Shown here: positions 29,600 through 43,773 of the stretch, in pieces | How positions within the stretch are numbered: position 1 is the first letter of the stretch | Layout: every line of letters begins with the position of its first letter | Source: a virus | IMG/VR virus record: IMGVR_UViG_3300009108_000017 | Coordinates: 1-43,773 of that record | Reading direction: 5' to 3' (one strand) | DNA: 43,773 nucleotides | Notes under the pieces: generated by a model | Database searches by the model: none | Told to the model about the DNA's origin: nothing | What the model saw: the letters and a program-made list of their open reading frames with translations, nothing else | Translations under genes and position numbers: made by a program

Positions 29600-30772
29600 T
29601 TAATAACTTTGTCCTGCTGGATTAAATTTACCATCAATTAAATCACCTATATCTGTAGCATTTCCGTCTGAAGTAAAGCTATGCTTATCTATTACATTGA
29701 AATAAGAATTATCCCAACCACCATGTGTATATCCAAAAGTAAGAGAGGAAGTACCAGCTAGATTACCTTTTGCGCCTGTTAGATTTCCAACATCTGTAGA
29801 ATTATTATCTGAAGCAAAAGTATATTTCTGAATCGTATTATAAAAATTACTTGCACCCCGATAGTCACCACTAACATAACCATGTGTTGATGAAGAATGT
29901 CCTGCAATTGACTTAGTTGTTGTTAATAAATTTCCTACGTCTGTAGCGTTTGAATCTGAAACATATGGAAACTTGTCAATTATATCATAGAAGGGGGCGG
30001 TTCCACCACCATGACTATAACCATAATCGGCTGATCCTGCCCCTGCTGTATTTGCTCTAGCAACTGTTAGATTTCCTACATCAGTAGCATTTCCGTCTGA
30101 AGTAAAAGAATGTTTATCAATAATATCTGAATTTGCTGACACTTCACCACCAGAAATATATCCATATGACTGAGGACTTGAATTTCCTGCAGCTTTACTT
30201 CTTCCAACAGTTAGATTACCTACGTCGGTAGCGTTTGATGCACTAGCAAATGGAAACTTGTCAATTACATCAACTTTGGGAGTTTCTCCACCTGAAGTAT
30301 AACCATATGTTTTAGAATTAGTACCGGTACAAGCGTCCTGGGATCTTGTCAAATCTGCATAATCGGCAGAGTTTCCATCAGTTGTAAAACTATATCTTTC
30401 TATTACATTTAATCTACCACCCCCGGCAGAATACCCACTAGAACAAAAACCATATTGAGTACCAGCGGGAGTAAAGGGCTCGATATTACCTGAACCTGCT
30501 CCTACGTTAGTCCATACGTTTTCACCAGCAGTTGCATCTGTACATATGTAAACTTCTCCTGAAGTAGTGTTACACCATTCAGTTCCGACACCACCAGAAG
30601 GATTCGTTGATATAGTAGGATCACTTGTTGAATTAGTTACACCAGTAGCTACATTCGTTAATTGACTTGCATCAACCGCAGGAAGATTACCAGAACCATC
30701 ATACACCAAAAGTTTATTGGCAGTTGTTCCTGTGTTCTCCATCAAAGAGATATCTATTTTAGTTAATGCCAT
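29600..30772 (-). CDS. Kelch-like six-repeat tail fibre/adhesin, paralogue A
   Basis: 390 residues. N-terminal adapter (NLPAVDASQLTN), then the block GVGTEWCNTTSGEVYICTD with ATAGENVWTNVGAGSG, then six repeats of about 45 residues of the form YGYxSGG-x-IDKFxFxSDxNATDVGNLT-x-AG. The Gly-Gly, Tyr and hydrophobic spacing is Kelch-like, so a six-bladed beta-propeller is likely. It is the last of five tandem paralogues. A host-receptor binding role is inferred from fibre adapter and location. The ribosome site AAGGA is the same as in its paralogues. Confidence 0.8.
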   Translation of the reverse strand: MALTKIDISLMENTGTTANKLLVYDGSGNLPAVDASQLTNVATGVTNSTSDPTISTNPSGGVGTEWCNTTSGEVYICTDATAGENVWTNVGAGSGNIEPFTPAGTQYGFCSSGYSAGGGRLNVIERYSFTTDGNSADYADLTRSQDACTGTNSKTYGYTSGGETPKVDVIDKFPFASASNATDVGNLTVGRSKAAGNSSPQSYGYISGGEVSANSDIIDKHSFTSDGNATDVGNLTVARANTAGAGSADYGYSHGGGTAPFYDIIDKFPYVSDSNATDVGNLLTTTKSIAGHSSSTHGYVSGDYRGASNFYNTIQKYTFASDNNSTDVGNLTGAKGNLAGTSSLTFGYTHGGWDNSYFNVIDKHSFTSDGNATDIGDLIDGKFNPAGQSY

Positions 30773-30781
30773 TTGTTTTCC

Positions 30782-32065
30782 TTAATAGTTTGCTCCTGTA
30801 TGACCCATGTAGGCTACAATAACTGTCATATCTCCAACATCAGTAGAAGTTCCTGCTGATGCATATGCAATTTTTGAAATAAAATTTTTATAACTACCAG
30901 CTTGTTCTCCACCATGTGTATACCCATGTGTTGTTGATGAAGTTCCAGATCCTCGATTTGGACTATAATTTAAATCTCCCCAATCTGTCGCATTTCCATC
31001 TGATGCAAAAGCAAACCGATCAATAACATTTGATGAAGTAGTACCAGCTGAATAACCATAAGTTTCAGATGAATAACACGAATGACTAAATTTAGTTTGT
31101 GTTAAATCACCAACATCTGTGGCAGTTCCACTACTAATAGTAAAAGGATATTTTTGTATTTGATTTAGACCAGTTCCACCGCTATTATATCCATGTGTAG
31201 TAGAAGAATGACCACCTGAAGAATCAATGTTGTCAAGTAAATCACCACCAGTATCAACCGAATTACCATCAGATGCAAAAGCATTTTTTGTAATTCCAGT
31301 ATTCCCATAATTTGGGGCAGGGGCTCCCTGACCATCAGCCCAAAAAACATATGAATCATTAGAAGAACTTGCTACACCATGTGATTGACCTAGAGCAAGT
31401 GTTCCTACCAATGTAGAATTTCCATCTGACGAATAACTCCATTTTTCAATTTTACCAGTAGATGCATAACCTCCAATATAACCATGAGTAGTTCCTGTAC
31501 CACCACAAGCATAATGTCCTGCTGTTGTTATATCTCCTACGTCGGTAGCATTTCCGTCTGTAGTAAAACTATATTTTTCTATTATATTTTGTGCGCCTGT
31601 TCCTGTATTATATCCACCAGCTCGATAACCATACTGTGTCCCTTGGAATGCCCAAGGTGCTACATCACCTGAACCTGCTCCTACGTTAGTCCATACGTTT
31701 TCTCCAGCAGTTGCATCAGTACATATATATACTTCTCCTGTACTTGTGTTATGCCATTCACTACCAACACCTCCAGAAGGATTTGTTGTTATAACAGGAT
31801 CACTAGAACTCTTTGTTGCACCTGGCATATTTGTTATTTGACTTCCATCAAGTGCAGGTAACTTTGCATTACCATCTAACTGTACAATCTTGTTGGCAGT
31901 TGTACCCGTATCAATACGAGCAATTGGAATCGTACCAGTAGCAATGTTACCAGCTGCAATAGCGGTAACTTGACTTCCATCAACAGCTGGAATCTTTCCA
32001 GTACTGTCTAAGAACAGAAATCTATTTGCTCCTATTGTTGTTCCATCTATAGTTATATCTGCCAT
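30782..32065 (-). CDS. Kelch-like six-repeat tail fibre/adhesin, paralogue B
   Basis: 427 residues with two N-terminal adapter repeats (GKIPAVDGSQVT and AKLPALDGSQIT), the conserved SEWHNTSTGEVYICTD block, and six Kelch-like repeats (for example HGYNSGGTGLNQIQKYPF and YGYSAGTTSSNVIDRFAF). One repeat (SYVFWADGQGAPAPN) is clearly degenerate. The gap to each neighbour is 9 bases, with AAGGAAAACAA before the ATG. Confidence 0.8.
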   Translation of the reverse strand: MADITIDGTTIGANRFLFLDSTGKIPAVDGSQVTAIAAGNIATGTIPIARIDTGTTANKIVQLDGNAKLPALDGSQITNMPGATKSSSDPVITTNPSGGVGSEWHNTSTGEVYICTDATAGENVWTNVGAGSGDVAPWAFQGTQYGYRAGGYNTGTGAQNIIEKYSFTTDGNATDVGDITTAGHYACGGTGTTHGYIGGYASTGKIEKWSYSSDGNSTLVGTLALGQSHGVASSSNDSYVFWADGQGAPAPNYGNTGITKNAFASDGNSVDTGGDLLDNIDSSGGHSSTTHGYNSGGTGLNQIQKYPFTISSGTATDVGDLTQTKFSHSCYSSETYGYSAGTTSSNVIDRFAFASDGNATDWGDLNYSPNRGSGTSSTTHGYTHGGEQAGSYKNFISKIAYASAGTSTDVGDMTVIVAYMGHTGANY

Positions 32066-32074
32066 TTGTTTTCC

Positions 32075-33352
32075 TTAGTATTGTGAACCACAAGGTCCCA
32101 GATAATTTTTAGCAGCCGTTAAATCTCCGATATCAGTAGCATTTGTATCAGAAGCATGAGGCCACTTTTGAATGGTGTTTACTGAGTTTCCACCACCTGC
32201 TCCAGTATCACCGCCACAACTATAACTATGTGTTAGGGATGATATACCAGAACTTACCCAAAGTGCCGCTATTAAATTTCCAATATCAGAACCAGCAGCA
32301 CTTGCCGCAAATGCAAATTTTTGAATATGATCGGTACGACTAGGCGCGGAACCCGCTCCAAAATTATAACCATGTGTAAGTGAAGAACTTCCTCCAGTTT
32401 GACCAGCACCAACGGCAAGATCACCAACATCAGCACCATTTGCAGATGCTTGCATTTGAAAACGCTCAATATATACTGACTGAGCACCACTAACAAAACC
32501 ACCGTGGATATATCCATAACCAGCATCTGTGTCAGAAGATCCGGCCGCATGACCATAGGATACAGTAGAATCACCTACATCAACTGCATTTGATGAAGAA
32601 GCATCAGCAGAACGCTCAATTATGTTTCCCTGACCCATCCAATAACAATGAGTTTCAGAACTACAAGAACCCAGATCCCTTCTAGTTGAAGTGAGATCAC
32701 CCACATCAACAGTATTACCTTCTGCAGCCCAAGACATTCTTTCTATTACATTTGAATTTCCACTAGGAGGATAACCACCCGCACAATAACCATGAGTAGG
32801 AGATGAACAACCTGTCCTCTCTCCTCCTGCTACGAGTATGTCACCGACATCAGTAGCATTTCCATCAGACGTAAGAGAAACTCGGTCAATTGCATTAGTA
32901 GTTGGTACAGTACCTCCCCATATATATCCATAACTAGAGCCTGGAAAATTAAATGGTTGTATATCACCTGAACCTGCACCTACATTAGTCCATACGTTTT
33001 CTCCAGCAGTTGCATCAGTACATATATATACTTCTCCTGAAGTTTTGTTAACCCACTTTGCACCAAGTGTAAGATTTGTATCTATAGCTGGATCACTCGT
33101 ACTTACAGTAGGTCCCGGAGCATTGGTTAAGTTTGCACCACTTATTGCAGGTATCTTTGCATTACTATCCAACTGTAATATTTTTCCTGCTGTAGTACCA
33201 ACATCTATTCTTGCTGTTGCAAGAGAACCAGTACTAAATGCAGAAGCATTCAAAGCAGTAACTTGACTACCATCAATAGCTGGTATCTTACTGTTACCAT
33301 CCAGTACGATAGTATTGTTTGCTCCAACTGTATTTGTTACATTAATCGTCAT
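32075..33352 (-). CDS. Kelch-like six-repeat tail fibre/adhesin, paralogue C
   Basis: 425 residues: two adapter repeats, the block WVNKTSGEVYICTDATAGEN, and six repeats. Residues at predicted loop positions differ strongly from the other copies (YWMGQG, YIHGGFVSGAQS, NFGAGSAPSRTD), while the frame residues VGDL are kept. Loop variation with frame conservation is what would be expected for diversified binding surfaces. Confidence 0.8.
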   Translation of the reverse strand: MTINVTNTVGANNTIVLDGNSKIPAIDGSQVTALNASAFSTGSLATARIDVGTTAGKILQLDSNAKIPAISGANLTNAPGPTVSTSDPAIDTNLTLGAKWVNKTSGEVYICTDATAGENVWTNVGAGSGDIQPFNFPGSSYGYIWGGTVPTTNAIDRVSLTSDGNATDVGDILVAGGERTGCSSPTHGYCAGGYPPSGNSNVIERMSWAAEGNTVDVGDLTSTRRDLGSCSSETHCYWMGQGNIIERSADASSSNAVDVGDSTVSYGHAAGSSDTDAGYGYIHGGFVSGAQSVYIERFQMQASANGADVGDLAVGAGQTGGSSSLTHGYNFGAGSAPSRTDHIQKFAFAASAAGSDIGNLIAALWVSSGISSLTHSYSCGGDTGAGGGNSVNTIQKWPHASDTNATDIGDLTAAKNYLGPCGSQY

Positions 33353-33361
33353 TTGTTTTCC

Positions 33362-34519
33362 TTATTGTTGACTTGTTGCCATATAATATCTTGCGACAGT
33401 TAAATCTGCTATATCAGTAGCATTACCCGAAGATGCCATCTGTAATTTTTGAATTATATTGGTACTTGATCCACCACCAGTTGTCCCACCAGAATGATAA
33501 GCATGAGTCGTAGATGAAGTTCCACCACCAACAGCTTGCGCACTAGCCAAATCACCGACATCAGAACCATTTGATGAAGCTGCAAATTGGAATCGTTCAA
33601 TGTAATTATTTACCCACGGATTACCTCCACCCAAAGCATAGCCATAAGTCAATGAACTACATCCTGCTTCATAAGACCTATTACCTGGCATGTCACCAAC
33701 ATCAGTAGAATTACCATCACTAGAATAAGAAACTCGTTGAATGTGATTTTGATCTGGATTATTACCTCCTGAACCATAACCATAACCTCCATTAATATCA
33801 CTATACCCAGCAATATAAGTAGCATTAGATAACAAATCACCGACATCAGTACTATTTCCATCTGTGCTGTGAGAATATTTTTCTATTCTATTATTTTCAC
33901 CACCAACACTATAACCATGAGTAATAGACGAAAAACCTCCATTACCTCCTAAACTTCCACCAACCAAATCTCCAATACGACTTGCATCTGAAGAACTTCC
34001 AAAAGCAAACTTAAAGATATCATCTGTATATGTTGAGGGCGACCAGCCGCCAGCCCAAAAACCATAAGTTGCAGATGAAGAACCACCACCAGATTGTCTT
34101 GCAAGAACTACATCACCGACATCAGTAGCATTTGAATCACTCGTAAAAGGGAAACGGTCGATTACGTTTGAAGAAGGCCACCCTGACATCTGATAACTAT
34201 AAGATTCACCCGGAAATGTCCAAGGCTGTACATCACCTGTACCTGCTCCTATATTAGTCCATACGTTTGCACCAGCTGTTGCGTCTGTACATATGTATGC
34301 TTCACCTGATGTCTTATTATACCAAACAGAACCAACACCATCAGAAGGATTTGTTGCTATAACAGGATCACTTGTTGATACAGTAAAACCAGTATCAACA
34401 TTAGTTAATTGACTTCCATCTATAGCTGGAAGATTACCTGAACCATCTCGTTGTACGAGTTGGTTTGCAGATGTTCCTACATCTTCCATCATTGTAATGT
34501 CTAATTTATTTACTGCCAT
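33362..34519 (-). CDS. Kelch-like six-repeat tail fibre/adhesin, paralogue D
   Basis: 385 residues: one adapter repeat with the N-terminus MAVNKLDITMMEDVGTSANQ, close to that of paralogue A, then VWYNKTSGEAYICTDATAG and six repeats ending in VARYYMATSQQ. The final repeat ends in Gln-Gln instead of the Gln-Tyr or Asn-Tyr of the others. A and D share the single-adapter N-terminus; B, C and E share the longer one. Confidence 0.8.
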   Translation of the reverse strand: MAVNKLDITMMEDVGTSANQLVQRDGSGNLPAIDGSQLTNVDTGFTVSTSDPVIATNPSDGVGSVWYNKTSGEAYICTDATAGANVWTNIGAGTGDVQPWTFPGESYSYQMSGWPSSNVIDRFPFTSDSNATDVGDVVLARQSGGGSSSATYGFWAGGWSPSTYTDDIFKFAFGSSSDASRIGDLVGGSLGGNGGFSSITHGYSVGGENNRIEKYSHSTDGNSTDVGDLLSNATYIAGYSDINGGYGYGSGGNNPDQNHIQRVSYSSDGNSTDVGDMPGNRSYEAGCSSLTYGYALGGGNPWVNNYIERFQFAASSNGSDVGDLASAQAVGGGTSSTTHAYHSGGTTGGGSSTNIIQKLQMASSGNATDIADLTVARYYMATSQQ

Positions 34520-34528
34520 TTGTTTTCC

Positions 34529-35806
34529 TTAGTATTCTGTTCCACCACCAGATGCAATTCCAGCATCAAGGTCAGCTACATCTACACTATTCCCATCTGT
34601 AGTAAAACTAAATTTTTCAATTACATTTGTATTTCCAGGATAACCACCTATCTCATAACCATAAGCTGTTGCCGATGATGCAGTAGATCCTCCTGTAGCT
34701 GTCAATAAATTACCTACATCAGTACCATTATTACTTGAATCAAATTGAAATTTTTGAATCGTATTTGTCCATCCTGAATTAACACCTGCTGAACTATACC
34801 CATGTGTGGTTGATGATGAACCCGAATTATTATACATAGATTCAAACAAATCTTGTGTTGTATCAACTGAATTACCATCTGACGCAAAAGCATTTCTTTC
34901 AATCTGATTAGTATGAGCACCAGTATATCCACCGACATTATAACCATGAGTTAAAGTAAAACAAGTAGCTCCTGAATGTCTACCCACTGCCATATCACCT
35001 ACATCAGTAGCATTTGAATCTGTTGCGTTTGGATGTTTATCAATAACATTTCTATAACTATTACCACCACCTTCTCCACCATAATTATAAATATGACTAC
35101 TAGATGAACAACTATTGTTCCAGAAAGCACGACCTATAGTTAAATCACCTACATCAGTAGCATTTGAATCTGACGCAAATGGAAATTTATTAATATCAAC
35201 CTTACTTGGTTCGCCACCAGCACCATAACCATAAGATGTAGATTTTCCACCACACATACCCTGCGCACCATATAACATATCTCCTACATCAGTTCCATTT
35301 GAATCTGATGATAACGACCATTTTCCAATACGATTACTTGCACTAGGATTTCCACCTATATAATATCCATAATTAGAACCCTGAACACTCCACGGCAAAA
35401 TATCACCTGTACCTGCTCCTACATTAGTCCATACATTTGCTCCAGCAGTTGCATCTGTGCATATATACATCTCACCTGTTGTACTATTATTCCATTCTGT
35501 TCCAACACCACCAGAGGGGTTTGTACTTACTGTAGGATCACTTGCAGAGATTGTTGCAGATACTATACCAGTTAATAGACTTGCATCAACAGCTGGAAGA
35601 TTTCCAGAACCATCTAGTAATACAAGTTTATTTGCAGTCGTACCAGTATCCAATCGAGCTGATGCAATAGTACCACTAGCAACATTGGTAGCATTCAGAA
35701 TTGTTATCTGACTACCATCTTTTGCTGGTATCTTACTACTACCATCGGCAACCAATATTTGATTGGCACCGTTTACTTGACTATCTGATATAGATATAAT
35801 TGCCAT
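34529..35806 (-). CDS. Kelch-like six-repeat tail fibre/adhesin, paralogue E
   Basis: 425 residues: two adapter repeats (SKIPAKDGSQITILNATN and GNLPAVDASLLTG), the block EWNNSTTGEMYICTDATAGA and six repeats. The stop of the next upstream gene and this start are directly adjacent. It is the first of the five tandem copies in the direction of transcription. Confidence 0.8.
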   Translation of the reverse strand: MAIISISDSQVNGANQILVADGSSKIPAKDGSQITILNATNVASGTIASARLDTGTTANKLVLLDGSGNLPAVDASLLTGIVSATISASDPTVSTNPSGGVGTEWNNSTTGEMYICTDATAGANVWTNVGAGTGDILPWSVQGSNYGYYIGGNPSASNRIGKWSLSSDSNGTDVGDMLYGAQGMCGGKSTSYGYGAGGEPSKVDINKFPFASDSNATDVGDLTIGRAFWNNSCSSSSHIYNYGGEGGGNSYRNVIDKHPNATDSNATDVGDMAVGRHSGATCFTLTHGYNVGGYTGAHTNQIERNAFASDGNSVDTTQDLFESMYNNSGSSSTTHGYSSAGVNSGWTNTIQKFQFDSSNNGTDVGNLLTATGGSTASSATAYGYEIGGYPGNTNVIEKFSFTTDGNSVDVADLDAGIASGGGTEY

Positions 35807-37999: not shown

Positions 38000-39445
38000 T
38001 TATGCCCAAGCCAATGAAGTTGCGTGTACTCTTGTTTCCTTTGATCCCGATGCCTGATTTGCCCATTCAATTTTATATCTCATATCAGTTCCAGAAGCAC
38101 TATTTGAAAATGCTACGTTGTTTGCAGATACAATCTTTTTAGTTCCACTTCCCCAAGTACCTTTATCCACAAGTGTTGCTTGATCCCATCCAGTTCCACC
38201 ATTACGAGATACATAAGCTTTTAAATCTGTATTCAATGTTGCTGTGCCTGCAAAATTTTCTACCAACATACAAATGTCACCTGTCGTTGGTGCAGACAAT
38301 GCTGTGTTTGCAGTTGATACTACATTACCAGTAGCGTTGGCAGCTGCTACCGGTGGAGTCATTGAAGCACCCGAATATCTTGCAATACCTTTAGAAATTC
38401 TAAGTTCATCCATATAATAACCACTTGTAGCAAACTCACTAGCAGCATGTGAGTTTGCTGAATCAACATGAGCTCCGATTGCTATATCACCACGATCACC
38501 AGATGTCCCAGTTAAACAAGTTTCACTTATTCGTCTTGTGCCATTTATGTAAACATCTATAGTATTCCCACCCCTACGTTGCATAACTACATAATTCCAT
38601 GCAGCTGTATTATAATACTCTCCTGTCGTTGAATGATGTCCTGATTGACCAAATTCCATACGAAACGCATCACTTGGATCAGAAGCAGTTTCAATATCCC
38701 ATTGTCCACCATTGTTATAATGATGATTTGGATGATGATTTACCAATCTATTTTGTCCTACCAATGGATTAGGACAATATACATAAAATTCAACAGTAAA
38801 GTCACCATCAAATTGCAAAGATGCATGCCACGGAACCCAAAAAGCAGTTGACCCAGTAAAAGCCCAACTAGTTGCTCCGATTTTATTTTGTGTTGTTGAA
38901 TGAGTTATTCCCCCAACTCTAGTTATTGTATGTCCGTAAGAAGAGCTGTCGGTGAATGTGGTGCCACCATTTGTTGTATCTGAATGTACGAGCAATGAAG
39001 TGTAAGAATCTGATGTAAATTGACCTGACGACATAGTTGTTAAATATCCAGCAGTTGCAGTTGCACCTGTTTGTAAAACATTTGTTACTGTCACTCCTGT
39101 CCCGTCTTTGTATTCATCAATCACTTGGTCAATCAAATTAAACTTTGCAAGATTATTTGCCGCCTGTGTTTTGAATGCGAGTATAGCAATATTATTTTCT
39201 AATACTGATGTATCAGTTGAAACACCAGTTAAGTTACTACCATCTATTGCAGGTAACGCACCACTAAGATTTGCCGATGCTAAATTTGTTAATGCAGAAC
39301 CATTGAGTGCAGGAAGATTACCAGTTAGTTTAGATGAACTAACACCAGTTTGAATCTTGGCATCTGTTATAGAACCATCAGCTATGTCTGCCGCGACAAC
39401 AGTTTCATCTGCTATGTTACTTGATTTAATTCTTGTTAATGCCAT
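38000..39445 (-). CDS. Tail fibre with LamG/concanavalin-like domain
   Basis: 481 residues. N-terminal adapter repeats (GNLPALNGSALTNL, GALPAIDGSNLTG), a short coiled coil (DTSVLENNIAILAFKTQAANNLAK), a LamG-like sandwich (about 190-360: FTVEFYVYCPNP, IDVYINGTRR, YMDELRISKGIARY) and a C-terminal domain PTTGDICMLVENFAG ending in TRVHATSLAWA. LamG-like domains bind carbohydrates in many phage tail proteins. The same adapter and C-terminal domain occur in the giant fibre next to it, so it is a smaller paralogue. Confidence 0.85.
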   Translation of the reverse strand: MALTRIKSSNIADETVVAADIADGSITDAKIQTGVSSSKLTGNLPALNGSALTNLASANLSGALPAIDGSNLTGVSTDTSVLENNIAILAFKTQAANNLAKFNLIDQVIDEYKDGTGVTVTNVLQTGATATAGYLTTMSSGQFTSDSYTSLLVHSDTTNGGTTFTDSSSYGHTITRVGGITHSTTQNKIGATSWAFTGSTAFWVPWHASLQFDGDFTVEFYVYCPNPLVGQNRLVNHHPNHHYNNGGQWDIETASDPSDAFRMEFGQSGHHSTTGEYYNTAAWNYVVMQRRGGNTIDVYINGTRRISETCLTGTSGDRGDIAIGAHVDSANSHAASEFATSGYYMDELRISKGIARYSGASMTPPVAAANATGNVVSTANTALSAPTTGDICMLVENFAGTATLNTDLKAYVSRNGGTGWDQATLVDKGTWGSGTKKIVSANNVAFSNSASGTDMRYKIEWANQASGSKETRVHATSLAWA

Positions 39446-39457
39446 TCTCTCTCTCCT

Positions 39458-42400
39458 TTATGACCAAGCTAAACTCGTTCCGTGTATTCTTGTTATTTTT
39501 CCTGACTCTGCTGTATATGATGAATCAGTTAAATTACCATCTCCATGAAGTAATAATTGTGTATTTGCATCAGTTGTAAAAGCAGATGTTGCTGGTGTAA
39601 AATTAGATGTATATCGTGCTGTATTAGAAAGTCTAACTTCATCCATGTAACCTATAAAACCATCACCCGAGTTTGCAGGTTTCCACCCAAGAAACGGTGT
39701 ACCAACATTTGCAAGATTTTGTGCCATTGTTGTACTCGCACCCTGAGTTCCATCTATAAATATTTTTACTGTTCCACTACTACGAGAACAAGCTACATGA
39801 CACCAAGTACTTACTGGTACTGTTGATGAAGTACTAAGTTCTGGTGATGGAGGACCATGAAGTTGAAGTCTAAGAGTTCTATTAGGATTAACATCAAAAA
39901 TCCAATCATATGTTTGTGTACCCCATTGGTTACTACCAAATAATTTTTTCTGACTAGAAATAGCTGCTAAGTAAATCCACATCTCCCAAGTAAAATCACC
40001 AGTACCATAATCCCAAGTTGCATTATCTTCTATTGAAAAATAATCTCCGTTAGCAGGAAAAGATAAAGAATGAGTTCCAAATTTCTTTTGAGTTGTTGAT
40101 GTAGTTGCATTTGATACAGCTGATACTGTATATGCTGTACCAACTGCCGCCGTGTAACTCTGATTCTTTGTTTCAATCTTATATCTCATACTAGTCGTTG
40201 CAGCTTCTGCTGGTGTGTTTGCCGTACCACCCATTGATGCATGATTAGAACAATAGTAATATAATGTTGGTGCTGATCCAGCTACAGCAATTTGTGTATA
40301 TGCATTAGCACTTCCAGGTGTTCCACTTTCTGTAACACCAGTTGTATATTGTGTACTACCAGCTGCGTCTGCCGCAGTTGCAAATTTAAATGTATGTCCC
40401 GACAATGTAGCATGAGATGTATCAAACTTATAAGTATATCCTTCAGTCAATTCTAAAGTTGGTTGCTGGTTTGAATAGGATAAAGCAGTCCATCCACTTT
40501 TCCAACTAATATCTGCGTAACTTGCATAAGGACTGCTACCTCCACCACCAGCTCCAAAAAAAATATGCATAGTTCCTGTAATGATATTAGTTGCAGTATG
40601 TTTTAAAGTTCCATTTTGATATACAGTAAGAGTAGAACCTACTCTTTTAAATTTATGAACATCATTATTACTACAAGTATACGCTGCCAAAGAAGAATTT
40701 GAACCACCACAAAGACCTTCTGTTTTGGTATCTCTCGCTTGAGTAGCAATAAACCATGTGTCTGTAAAACTTACCATATTACCATTTTCTTGTGATGAGT
40801 TAAATGATCCTACTTCCGCTGAGTCAAATACACCGAACCAACCAGCAGCAGATTCACCAGCAGTTATTTTAGCTTCTACTTCAAAATCTCCACTAAGAGT
40901 TGCTGTACTGTACATTGCTTTATTATTTGTAGTAGCTGTAACTGTTCCTGAACCATAAGAAAAACTACTAGGACTGCCTGTAAATTCACTTGCTGCAGAT
41001 GGAGTTGTCGAAGTAGACCAACTTGCAGGTGTTTCAACTTCATCAATATGAAACTTTGATGAACGAGCAGTTATTGCTTTCGTAATAGTCCCAGGTATCG
41101 TAACATCATTAGCTGCCCATACATTTTGATTTGTTCCCCATGTACCTTTATTTACTAAAGTTGTATCTACATAATTTAATGCATCTCTACTTACACCAAC
41201 TTTAACATCTGTATTGATTGTTGCTGTTCCCACTTCATCTTCAGTCTGTATCATTATGTCTGCTTTCGTTGGTGCAGTCTGTGCCGTTGTCGTGGTTGAT
41301 ATAAGGGACATACTATCTGAAGCTGCTACGGCAGCTACTGCTCCACCATGAACCAAAAGTTTTGTATTTGCATCTGATGTAAATTGTGTAGGACTAGCAA
41401 TCGTTCCACCTCCTTGACCAAACGCTGTGAAATTAGATGTATATCTTGCTACATTAGAAATTCTAATTTCTTCTAAATAACCTTCAAGATCCCTTGTCGT
41501 TCCTCGCCACGATGTGTTGCCTTGCTGTCCGAGAAAAAGATTATTTGAATTAGAAAAATTAGTACCTACTGTACCTGTCCCATTAGAAGCCAGCGTACCA
41601 TTAATATATAATTTTGATTGATTTGACCCTGATCCCTCTCTAACCCACGCTAGATGATACCAAGTATTTAATGTAGGCACAGTTGCACTATAAAGTGTTC
41701 GTGTGTTCGCCAAATAGACTGCTGGATAAAAATCGTTCATAAGTCCAATCGCCCAAACAGAATTATAACCATTATCACCTATCAATAAATTTTGTGCAGA
41801 TGAACCAGTATTACCATTAAGTACTGTTACGTTATACCAAAATTCAATTGTAAAAGGATTTGTCCCAAAACTAAAATCACTATGTGAAGTAATTTCTACT
41901 CTATCTCCATCTCCATCAAAAGCTATTGAATGTGTTCCAATCTTTTTACTTGCCGTTGATATTACTGCGTTAGTTGCTGTTACTGTATGTGCTGAACTAC
42001 TTGCATCTGTCATAGCAGCAACAGCTGCAACAGCAGTTACTTGTCCCTCATAATATTTTGCACCAGCACTACCTTGTAACTCTGCACTAGTAGAAGAACC
42101 TGTGTTTACTGCGGCAGGTACAGCACTTGGTTGTGGTGTATCAGTTGACCGATCTCCAGAAGTTAAATTAGCAACTGTAAAATCAATATTATTTCCACTC
42201 ACATCATTACCAAGAGCACTACTATCCGCAAAGTCTAAATAAAAACCATTAGTACCATATGTTAATCCCGTAACTGTTTTTGGTTTCCAAACACCAGAAA
42301 CAGTTTGTCCGAATGTACTTGGTGTTAATTGTTGTCCATCTACTGAACGAAAATCAGCCAAATATCCGTCAAAATAAAGTGAAGATGTTTCTCTACGCCC

Positions 42401-43204
42401 AAGATATATTTTACCATTGTTTGCACGAATATCAGAATTTTGACCAACAGCAGCATTAGTATCCCAAGCAGTAATTTCTGAACCATCAATATAAACTTTA
42501 AGACGATCAGCAGCTGTGCCTTGAGAACTATCCCATGCAACTACAATATGAACCCAATCAGTCGTACTCGTAAATGTTTGTGTTGATATTCTTACAGTTG
42601 TATCTCCTTGTTGAATATATATTTTATTAGCTGCTTGCCATCCAACTTGATTTCTAGCAGTAGAACTACCAGAATAATTTGCCCACATTCTTTGGTCTGA
42701 AGAAATTGATGCCCTCTTAAACCACCAACTCTGTGTTCCCTTTGTAGTAGAACCACCAGACAAACTTGCCTTTGACATATCATCTGAACTAGCTCGAGTA
42801 AATCTACAAGAGTATGGAATTGCAGGAATAGCTGGGGAACTATTCTCAGCAGTAATACCCGTAGCGTCCTCATAGTTATCTATTACTTGGTCAATCATAT
42901 TATACTTGGTCAACTGGTCAACAGCACCAATTTGCAAACCAAGTCGTGCTAACTGATTTTCTATTGGATTAAAATCTGTCGTGATACCAGTTAATGCAGT
43001 TCCATCAAGTACAGGTAAAGCACCAGTAAGATTTGCAGCTGTCAGATTGGTTAATGCAGAACCATTGAGTGCAGGTAAAGCACCAGACAATTTACTGGAA
43101 CTCAATGCAGCTATATTGTCATTTGATATTGTGTTATCATCAAAGTCAATACCTGCAATAGTTCCATCTTCAATGTTACTTGCTTTTATAGTATTTAGTG
43201 CCAT
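39458..43204 (-). CDS. Giant multi-domain tail fibre with LamG-like and cupredoxin-like modules
   Basis: 1248 residues. Adapter repeats at 40-75, a helical linker, LamG-like domains at about 130-295 and 430-595, a split small domain starting at 645, a SPRY/concanavalin-like domain (about 725-900), a cupredoxin-like module (914-994) and a final LamG-like domain (1035-1210). The C-terminus TRIHGTSLAWS matches the 481-residue paralogue. The adhesins are probably sugar-binding. The cupredoxin-like module has H937, C985, H988 and M991 in the blue-copper ligand order. A late promoter lies 25 bases upstream of the ATG. It is the largest gene in the window. Confidence 0.88.
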   Translation of the reverse strand: MALNTIKASNIEDGTIAGIDFDDNTISNDNIAALSSSKLSGALPALNGSALTNLTAANLTGALPVLDGTALTGITTDFNPIENQLARLGLQIGAVDQLTKYNMIDQVIDNYEDATGITAENSSPAIPAIPYSCRFTRASSDDMSKASLSGGSTTKGTQSWWFKRASISSDQRMWANYSGSSTARNQVGWQAANKIYIQQGDTTVRISTQTFTSTTDWVHIVVAWDSSQGTAADRLKVYIDGSEITAWDTNAAVGQNSDIRANNGKIYLGRRETSSLYFDGYLADFRSVDGQQLTPSTFGQTVSGVWKPKTVTGLTYGTNGFYLDFADSSALGNDVSGNNIDFTVANLTSGDRSTDTPQPSAVPAAVNTGSSTSAELQGSAGAKYYEGQVTAVAAVAAMTDASSSAHTVTATNAVISTASKKIGTHSIAFDGDGDRVEITSHSDFSFGTNPFTIEFWYNVTVLNGNTGSSAQNLLIGDNGYNSVWAIGLMNDFYPAVYLANTRTLYSATVPTLNTWYHLAWVREGSGSNQSKLYINGTLASNGTGTVGTNFSNSNNLFLGQQGNTSWRGTTRDLEGYLEEIRISNVARYTSNFTAFGQGGGTIASPTQFTSDANTKLLVHGGAVAAVAASDSMSLISTTTTAQTAPTKADIMIQTEDEVGTATINTDVKVGVSRDALNYVDTTLVNKGTWGTNQNVWAANDVTIPGTITKAITARSSKFHIDEVETPASWSTSTTPSAASEFTGSPSSFSYGSGTVTATTNNKAMYSTATLSGDFEVEAKITAGESAAGWFGVFDSAEVGSFNSSQENGNMVSFTDTWFIATQARDTKTEGLCGGSNSSLAAYTCSNNDVHKFKRVGSTLTVYQNGTLKHTATNIITGTMHIFFGAGGGGSSPYASYADISWKSGWTALSYSNQQPTLELTEGYTYKFDTSHATLSGHTFKFATAADAAGSTQYTTGVTESGTPGSANAYTQIAVAGSAPTLYYYCSNHASMGGTANTPAEAATTSMRYKIETKNQSYTAAVGTAYTVSAVSNATTSTTQKKFGTHSLSFPANGDYFSIEDNATWDYGTGDFTWEMWIYLAAISSQKKLFGSNQWGTQTYDWIFDVNPNRTLRLQLHGPPSPELSTSSTVPVSTWCHVACSRSSGTVKIFIDGTQGASTTMAQNLANVGTPFLGWKPANSGDGFIGYMDEVRLSNTARYTSNFTPATSAFTTDANTQLLLHGDGNLTDSSYTAESGKITRIHGTSLAWS

Positions 43205-43271: not shown

Positions 43272-43773
43272 TTAGTATTGTGCGCCTGTTGGCCCATTAT
43301 ATCTACCACCCGCTGTAACTAAATCTCCGACATCGGTAGCATTAGCATCACTCGCCAGCGTAAACTTCTCAATTATAGTATTGTGTGAATCAGGCCAAAT
43401 ACCTCCCATACAATAACCATATGTTGTTGATGTTACGCCGGTAAGGTCAAATCGAGCAACAGTTAAATCTCCAACATCAGTAGAAGTGATACTTGAACCA
43501 AAGGCAAATTTTCGTATATAATTACTTTGACTGGGTTCTCCTCCTCCAGATTGATAACCATATGTTTCTGTTGATTGATTTGCATGAGAAGCTTGTGGAT
43601 ATATCATATCACCAACATCAACAGCATTAGAAGATGCTTGCATTTGATAACGATCAATAGTATTATTTGTGCCAGGATAACCACCTGTGCAATAACCATA
43701 ACTATTTCCAACATCAGAATTACCACCTGGATAATTTCTCGCAACACTTAAATCACCGACATCAGCAGCATTA
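43272..43773 (-). CDS. Kelch-like fibre/adhesin, paralogue F, 5' end beyond window
   Basis: The reading frame is open from the window edge to the stop at 43272. The visible C-terminal part has three full repeats and part of another (YGYCTGGYPGTNNTIDRY, YGYQSGGGEPSQSNYI, YGYCMGGIWPDSHN; each with VGDL) and ends in GPTGAQY, as in the other copies. It lies upstream of the LamG fibres, so the Kelch-like family flanks them on both sides. Confidence 0.8.
   Translation of the reverse strand, partial: NAADVGDLSVARNYPGGNSDVGNSYGYCTGGYPGTNNTIDRYQMQASSNAVDVGDMIYPQASHANQSTETYGYQSGGGEPSQSNYIRKFAFGSSITSTDVGDLTVARFDLTGVTSTTYGYCMGGIWPDSHNTIIEKFTLASDANATDVGDLVTAGGRYNGPTGAQY

Follow-up and report, generated by a model that had tools for sequence, protein, structure and literature searches.

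A split cupredoxin-like domain with a predicted type-1-like copper site in a tail-fibre protein of a marine T4-like phage

The fibre gene and its surroundings

The window (the whole stretch of DNA analysed, positions 1 to 43,773 of the IMG/VR virus record IMGVR_UViG_3300009108_000017) is a fragment of a marine, T4-like, contractile-tailed phage, with PHROG matches for a portal, head scaffold, major head protein, sheath, and terminase. Its sheath shares ~50% identity with the sheaths of Pelagibacter phage HTVC008M and other myoviruses, and the nearest relatives of its terminase are from Synechococcus myoviruses. Toward the end of the window, a minus-strand gene encodes a 1248-aa tail-fibre or adhesin protein, whose PHROG matches are to baseplate, tail, and virion structural families. 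This protein carries the domain considered here. Its features, and those of the neighboring paralogue, are as follows, with residues numbered in the 1248-aa protein and the evidence in parentheses.

39458..43204, minus strand: 1248-aa tail-fibre/adhesin protein, the carrier of the domain (PF13385, LamG-like, in three stretches, E 2.4e-45; PHROG families)
41093..41344, minus strand: carrier fibre module, piece 1, residues 621-704, directly upstream of the split cupredoxin (paralogue alignment)
41033..41092, minus strand: predicted N-terminal hairpin of the cupredoxin, residues 705-724, GTITKAITARSSKFHIDEVE (hairpin sliding and MAFFT)
40472..41032, minus strand: nested insert, residues 725-911, between hairpin and body (HMM gap and MAFFT)
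40205..40471, minus strand: predicted cupredoxin main body, residues 912-1000 (family HMM, 127.5 bits, E 1.4e-41)
40394..40396, minus strand: H937, predicted first Cu ligand (translation and conservation)
40250..40252, minus strand: C985, predicted Cu thiolate ligand (translation and conservation)
40241..40243, minus strand: H988, predicted second His ligand (translation and conservation)
40232..40234, minus strand: M991, predicted axial Met ligand (translation and conservation)
40151..40201, minus strand: carrier fibre module, piece 2, residues 1002-1018 (paralogue alignment)
39614..40051, minus strand: LamG/ConA-like domain, residues 1052-1197, in the second insertion of the carrier module (best stretch of PF13385)
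39461..39505, minus strand: carrier fibre module, piece 3, residues 1234-1248, the C-terminus of the fibre (paralogue alignment)
38000..39445, minus strand: 481-aa paralogous fibre with an uninterrupted carrier module, a natural "empty site" (alignment)

The same strand carries five kelch-like paralogues in a row (29600-35806; 385-427 aa, with best pairwise identities of 41-48%) and part of a sixth (43272-43773; 166 aa), which runs off the window edge. All share a short fibre-like N-terminus followed by repeats of the form YGY.xGG...I.k..f.sd.natDvgDl, and they are probably a tandem array of fibre or propeller adhesins.

A cupredoxin-like copper site had been proposed for residues 914-994 (40223-40465) in a first-pass annotation. 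The strings on which this was based are in place in the translation of 39458-43204 (LELTEGYTYKF at 917-927, SGHTFKF at 935-941, and YYYCSNHASMGG at 982-993), and H937, C985, H988, and M991 are exactly where they were placed. The extent proposed was too short: the body of the domain runs from ~912 to 1000, with its N-terminal hairpin well upstream of it, at 705-724. A family HMM that excluded the window sequence matches residues 912-1001 with its nodes 25-116, and more weakly residues 706-748 with nodes 8-47. When 51 homologous hairpins were slid without gaps along the whole protein (~1228 positions), 19 scored best exactly at residue 705. MAFFT alignment of residues 700-1007 with 22 relatives put all 22 hairpins at 705-724, unprompted, with one gap of ~190 residues. 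The segment at 705-724 is therefore taken to be the first hairpin, standing 187 residues upstream of the body, and residues 725-911 to be a nested insert. This insert is probably a concanavalin-like beta-sandwich, judged by eye. A comparison with Pfam gave nothing below E 0.1, a pattern search of IMG/VR found no relatives of it, and tblastn of residues 705-1015 against phages gave, among the matches listed, the cupredoxin body only. The phage homologue copies inspected showed no comparable nested insert. The nearest relative (L001) apparently has its cupredoxin interrupted by a LamG domain at a neighboring loop, also by eye.

The next gene provides a comparison for the carrier. Its 481-aa product is 54% identical to the 1248-aa fibre over the N-terminal 122 aa, and its C-terminal module aligns end to end with fibre residues 621-704, 1002-1018, and 1234-1248. 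As read from this alignment, the split cupredoxin as a whole is an insertion within a loop of the carrier fibre module. The predicted arrangement of a split cupredoxin with another domain nested in it is new, and the split could not be seen in the first-pass annotation. Together with its empty-site paralogue, the nested domain offers an example of fibre genes gaining domains by loop insertion.

Predicted site, fold, and relationship to cellular copper proteins

The pattern C-x2-H-x(2-4)-M occurs just once in the six frames of the window, at C985, H988, and M991. With H937, it gives the window copy the ligand set of the cupredoxin superfamily, His...Cys-x(2-4)-His-x(2-4)-Met. Type 1 copper and CuA-like sites had both been suggested from the order and spacing of these residues. 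The first reading stands, in the form of a predicted mononuclear, type-1-like site with amicyanin spacing, while the second does not. CuA loops, of the type in cytochrome oxidase subunit II, have two Cys residues and a dinuclear site. CuA identity is ruled out here, since C-x2-H-x2-M is a loop of amicyanin length with one Cys, and C985 is the single Cys in residues 912-1000 (the others in the 1248-aa fibre are at 133, 832, 844, 1135, and 1139). There is no T4 gp37-type H-x-H iron motif in residues 912-1000.

An AlphaFold2 model made from a 52-row alignment has a pLDDT of 80.9, with values >90 over most of the core. The first eight Foldseek matches to it in the PDB all have the cupredoxin fold (E 0.009-0.03), with antibodies after them; they include amicyanin in first place, AcoP, an azurin with a CAAHAAM loop, an azurin with a plastocyanin-type loop, and the cupredoxin domain of nitrite reductase. 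By VIA-align the best match is purple cupredoxin, with a Z of 6.5 over 93 residues (below the caution line of Z 8), followed by laccases, rusticyanin, auracyanin, plastocyanin, and amicyanin. These scores are modest, in part because the fragment modelled lacks the split hairpin, and as comparisons of a predicted structure they are insufficient by themselves to settle whether the fold is the eight-strand Greek-key beta-sandwich of cupredoxins.

Amicyanin (PDB 3ie9, 1aaj; Foldseek rank 1, E 0.009, probability 0.98, 17% identity over the alignment) shares with the window domain both the ligand order and the seven-residue C-x2-H-x2-M spacing. Its VIA-align alignments stop at model position 106, opposite amicyanin 105; if they are ungapped there, C985, H988, and M991 would fall on the amicyanin ligands C92, H95, and M98. 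Amicyanin is a free periplasmic electron carrier for methylamine dehydrogenase, whereas the window domain is split and lies inside a phage fibre. The azurin with the CAAHAAM loop (PDB 3fsa, Foldseek rank 3) also has C-x2-H-x2-M spacing, as an engineered protein. Plastocyanin- and halocyanin-like proteins of PF00127 line up with the phage family at both His ligands and the Cys, but their C-x2-H-x4-M loop is two residues longer than that of the window domain.

The phage family was also compared with cellular proteins by profile. HHalign of the phage-family profile against 58 cellular Copper-bind (PF00127) domains, drawn from marine archaeal and alphaproteobacterial genomes, gave E 5.7e-6, a probability of 85%, and a score of 34.6. 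In this alignment the two His and the Cys pair with their Copper-bind counterparts, and the Met falls at a two-residue gap, as the cellular loop is C-x2-H-x4-M. By comparison, 60 column shuffles scored no higher than 16.6 and a reversed version 13.3. Plastocyanin is also at the top of an hmmsearch of the PDB with a phage-only profile, again with H, C, and H in register, though at an E of only 0.068. A related copy from the P-SSM2 tail spike (family HMM E 2.8e-5) goes further on its own: in a single-sequence phmmer search of the PDB its best match is cupredoxin 1 (E 7.5e-4), followed by rusticyanin, auracyanin, nitrite reductase, and amicyanin, and it scores 20.7 bits on PF00127, under the cut-off of 21.2. 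PF00127 matches nine of 41 relatives, the best at an E of only 0.0022. The window protein does not reach the PF00127 gathering cut-off, no Pfam model matches its copy of the domain, and it is therefore not classed as a member. Profiles were needed because the window domain, used as a single sequence against Pfam and the PDB, found no cupredoxin. Overall, the cupredoxin-like reading is backed independently by the fold and profile comparisons, and from its sequence relationships the window domain is considered to descend from blue-copper proteins, with all four predicted copper-holding residues intact.

Conservation of the ligands and distribution of the domain

The first-pass annotation had named variation of the four residues in homologues as grounds for doubt. 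When homologues were examined, these proved to be among the most conserved positions of the family. Across 18 divergent relatives with identities of 41-87% to the window domain, a G, an F, H937, YYYC(985), H988, and GG are invariant, and M991 is nearly so; in the 52-row alignment, YYC and H988 are invariant and H937 and M991 are present in at least 90% of rows. The full H/C/H/M set is found in 17 of 21 aligned phage copies, from records chosen by tblastn and not by motif. The four exceptions have lost the Cys and second His together, and three of them the first His as well.

This pattern of loss was tabulated by pooling the phage records found by tblastn with the first scan. The distant first His is kept in 48 of 48 copies with C..H and is absent in five of six copies without it (Fisher p 2e-6, uncorrected for kinship, and with two of the six degenerate copies near-identical), while the core Phe of the second beta strand is kept in all six. 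Loss of ligands ~48 positions apart in the same copies, with the scaffold kept, is the pattern expected of a shared metal site. Because the IMG/VR profile scan started from YYYC[SA]NH, its 80 contigs were not counted as evidence on the Cys and His, and the tblastn phage records took their place. The earlier suggestion that the site might be a structural relic is unlikely to apply to the window copy, which is complete, since the true relics in this family drop several ligands jointly.

A metal-binding redox domain in a phage adhesin had been regarded as something unusual, but the domain turns out to be widespread among marine phages, in proteins of the tail and virion. tblastn of its 89 residues found 283 of 50,697 phage records at E≤1e-3, rising to 325 with the threshold at E≤0.01, nearly all in phages of cyanobacteria (including Prochlorococcus), Pelagibacter, and Methylophilales. 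In IMG/VR, six patterns found 48 loci, and a profile scan found at least 579 viral contigs with confirmed relatives. Annotated carriers include gp9, a "baseplate wedge tail fiber connector" (P-SSM4, S-RIM2), the P-SSM2 tail spike, virion structural proteins of S-TIM66, and fibres of Pelagibacter phages. The C-terminal domain of gp9 and the related tail-fibre, tail-spike, and virion proteins are direct homologues, with H...C-x2-H-x2-M as in the window (from the P-SSM4, P-SSM2, S-RIM2, and S-TIM5 types, the Pelagibacter phages Baldr, HTVC028P, and Mosig, and the Methylophilales phage Melnitz); their annotations go no further than structural or hypothetical. In the open literature searched, outside of which lay most subscription journals and all preprints, there was no description of a cupredoxin or copper-binding domain in phage tail fibres or cyanophage virions.

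Several further occurrences were observed. The protein downstream of gp9 in P-SSM4 and S-RIM2 (L136, L138) has another intact C-x2-H-x2-M copy as well as one in which the Cys, His, and Met have been lost. A BFVD model from Synechococcus phage ACG-2014e (A0A0E3F583, "Peptidase S8/S53 domain-containing") matches the cupredoxin model with a Foldseek E of 1.6e-4, which suggests that a virion protease may be among the carriers of the domain. On PF25489, a plant domain (At5g54830-like) that may be a related cupredoxin-like one, several cyanophage copies have weak scores (E 0.001-0.015). Among bacterial and archaeal genomes, a scan found four contigs with the phage-type domain. In two marine Euryarchaeota MAGs the same cupredoxin caps collagen-like Gly-X-Y repeats (L131, 2-499; L132, 3161-4279), a stalk-plus-cupredoxin arrangement that resembles the one in phages. 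The L132 protein is lipoprotein-like, with a lipobox-like signal, LTASALSGC, and its genome has a separate, conventional Copper-bind protein too. A MAG named Maricaulis sp. (G002) has five copies of the phage-type domain (L156, L160-L163), possibly on phage contigs binned with it.

Possible roles of the domain

The best explanation of these observations as a whole, and on balance a probable one, is that residues 705-724 and 912-1000 form a cupredoxin with an intact type-1-like site, an exchangeable domain of marine-phage tail and virion proteins that serves as a copper-rigidified knob. Most likely, this swappable fibre module would use copper as a structural or receptor-binding cofactor and not as an electron carrier. 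The candidate site would acquire copper in sea water or as the particle assembles, and this metal would pin both the ligand loop and the beta-sandwich. The result would be a rigid, protease-resistant knob on the fibre, near its C-terminal receptor-binding part, which, shown from a loop of the fibre, could help to present or form the binding surface; less certainly, the metallated loop itself might touch the host surface. The receptor-binding role is one that we infer from position only. The persistence of degenerate copies implies that the scaffold can work without metal, so that not every role of the module depends on it.

Such copies (L044, L046, L144, L146, L149) also lend some weight to the idea that the fold persists purely as an adhesin scaffold of beta-sandwich type, its four residues serving for loop packing, or binding zinc or nothing in vivo. 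Reuse of beta-sandwich folds is common in phage tails, which is consistent with this. Conservation of the Cys, two His, and Met, and their loss together, is a metal-site pattern and not one of generic packing, and C985, the only Cys of the domain body in the window copy, is unpaired there; a scaffold-only role is considered unlikely, though it retains some plausibility. Recognition of the metal by the host is harder to credit. Bound copper might be recognised by a host surface protein for copper uptake or handling, as a copper counterpart of the "Ferrojan horse", and a conserved candidate metal site in marine phage tail proteins would be in keeping with this. There is a precedent for metal in tails, as HxH motifs bind iron in T4 gp37 and have been proposed for alterophage fibres, with the Ferrojan horse hypothesis (PMC11705849). 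There, as in the reading of the window fibre, a metal ion is part of a tail fibre, but T4 gp37 holds Fe through HxH, while the site of the window domain would be built from His, Cys, His, and Met of one chain, within a cupredoxin fold. Related structural proteins keep metal-free copies, and some members of the family are in gp9 connectors or virion structural proteins and not at a fibre tip, so recognition of this kind appears quite improbable.

Type-1 copper proteins are mostly electron carriers, and this is the main attraction of a redox or electron-transfer role, or of an auxiliary metabolic one in copper scavenging for the infected host. Against this, the domain is part of a large fibre protein encoded amid virion structural genes, its relatives are likewise in structural proteins, and no redox partner is evident for a tail fibre. 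Since metal-free copies persist, a redox enzyme fits less well than an adhesin module with an optional structural metal; the window domain is not expected to transfer electrons, and these redox and metabolic roles are given very little credence. Equally poor is the case for a chance motif in a beta-rich fibre domain that is not a cupredoxin and has converged on an antibody-framework-like Y-Y-C-x2-H. Antibody V domains do appear in the sequence and structure searches, ranked below cupredoxins, which head the Foldseek, VIA-align, and profile results with the exception of one search. The first His, Cys, and second His are in register with those of the cellular proteins, and the shuffled and reversed controls fail. 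This reading was rejected on the controls and on the conservation of the H937/C985/H988/M991 pattern across the divergent relatives compared.

The occurrence of the same domain in tail and virion proteins of many ocean phages suggests that these virions may carry copper. A broader version, in which many marine phage virions (of cyanophages, pelagiphages, and others) would bear copper-loaded tail cupredoxins, with the copper aiding host recognition or adhesin rigidity, is tentative and on the doubtful side. If it is true, virions would be a pool of copper ligands in the sea, and the availability or chelation of copper would control adsorption. Cupredoxins themselves are well known, and what is new here is a cupredoxin serving as an exchangeable domain of phage virions. 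Recognizing it would correct the annotation of a domain that is unnamed in Pfam and PHROGs. An intact copper-protein domain recurring in abundant ocean phages would add a second metal to the iron of phage tails, and a fold usually tied to electron transfer would gain a place there.
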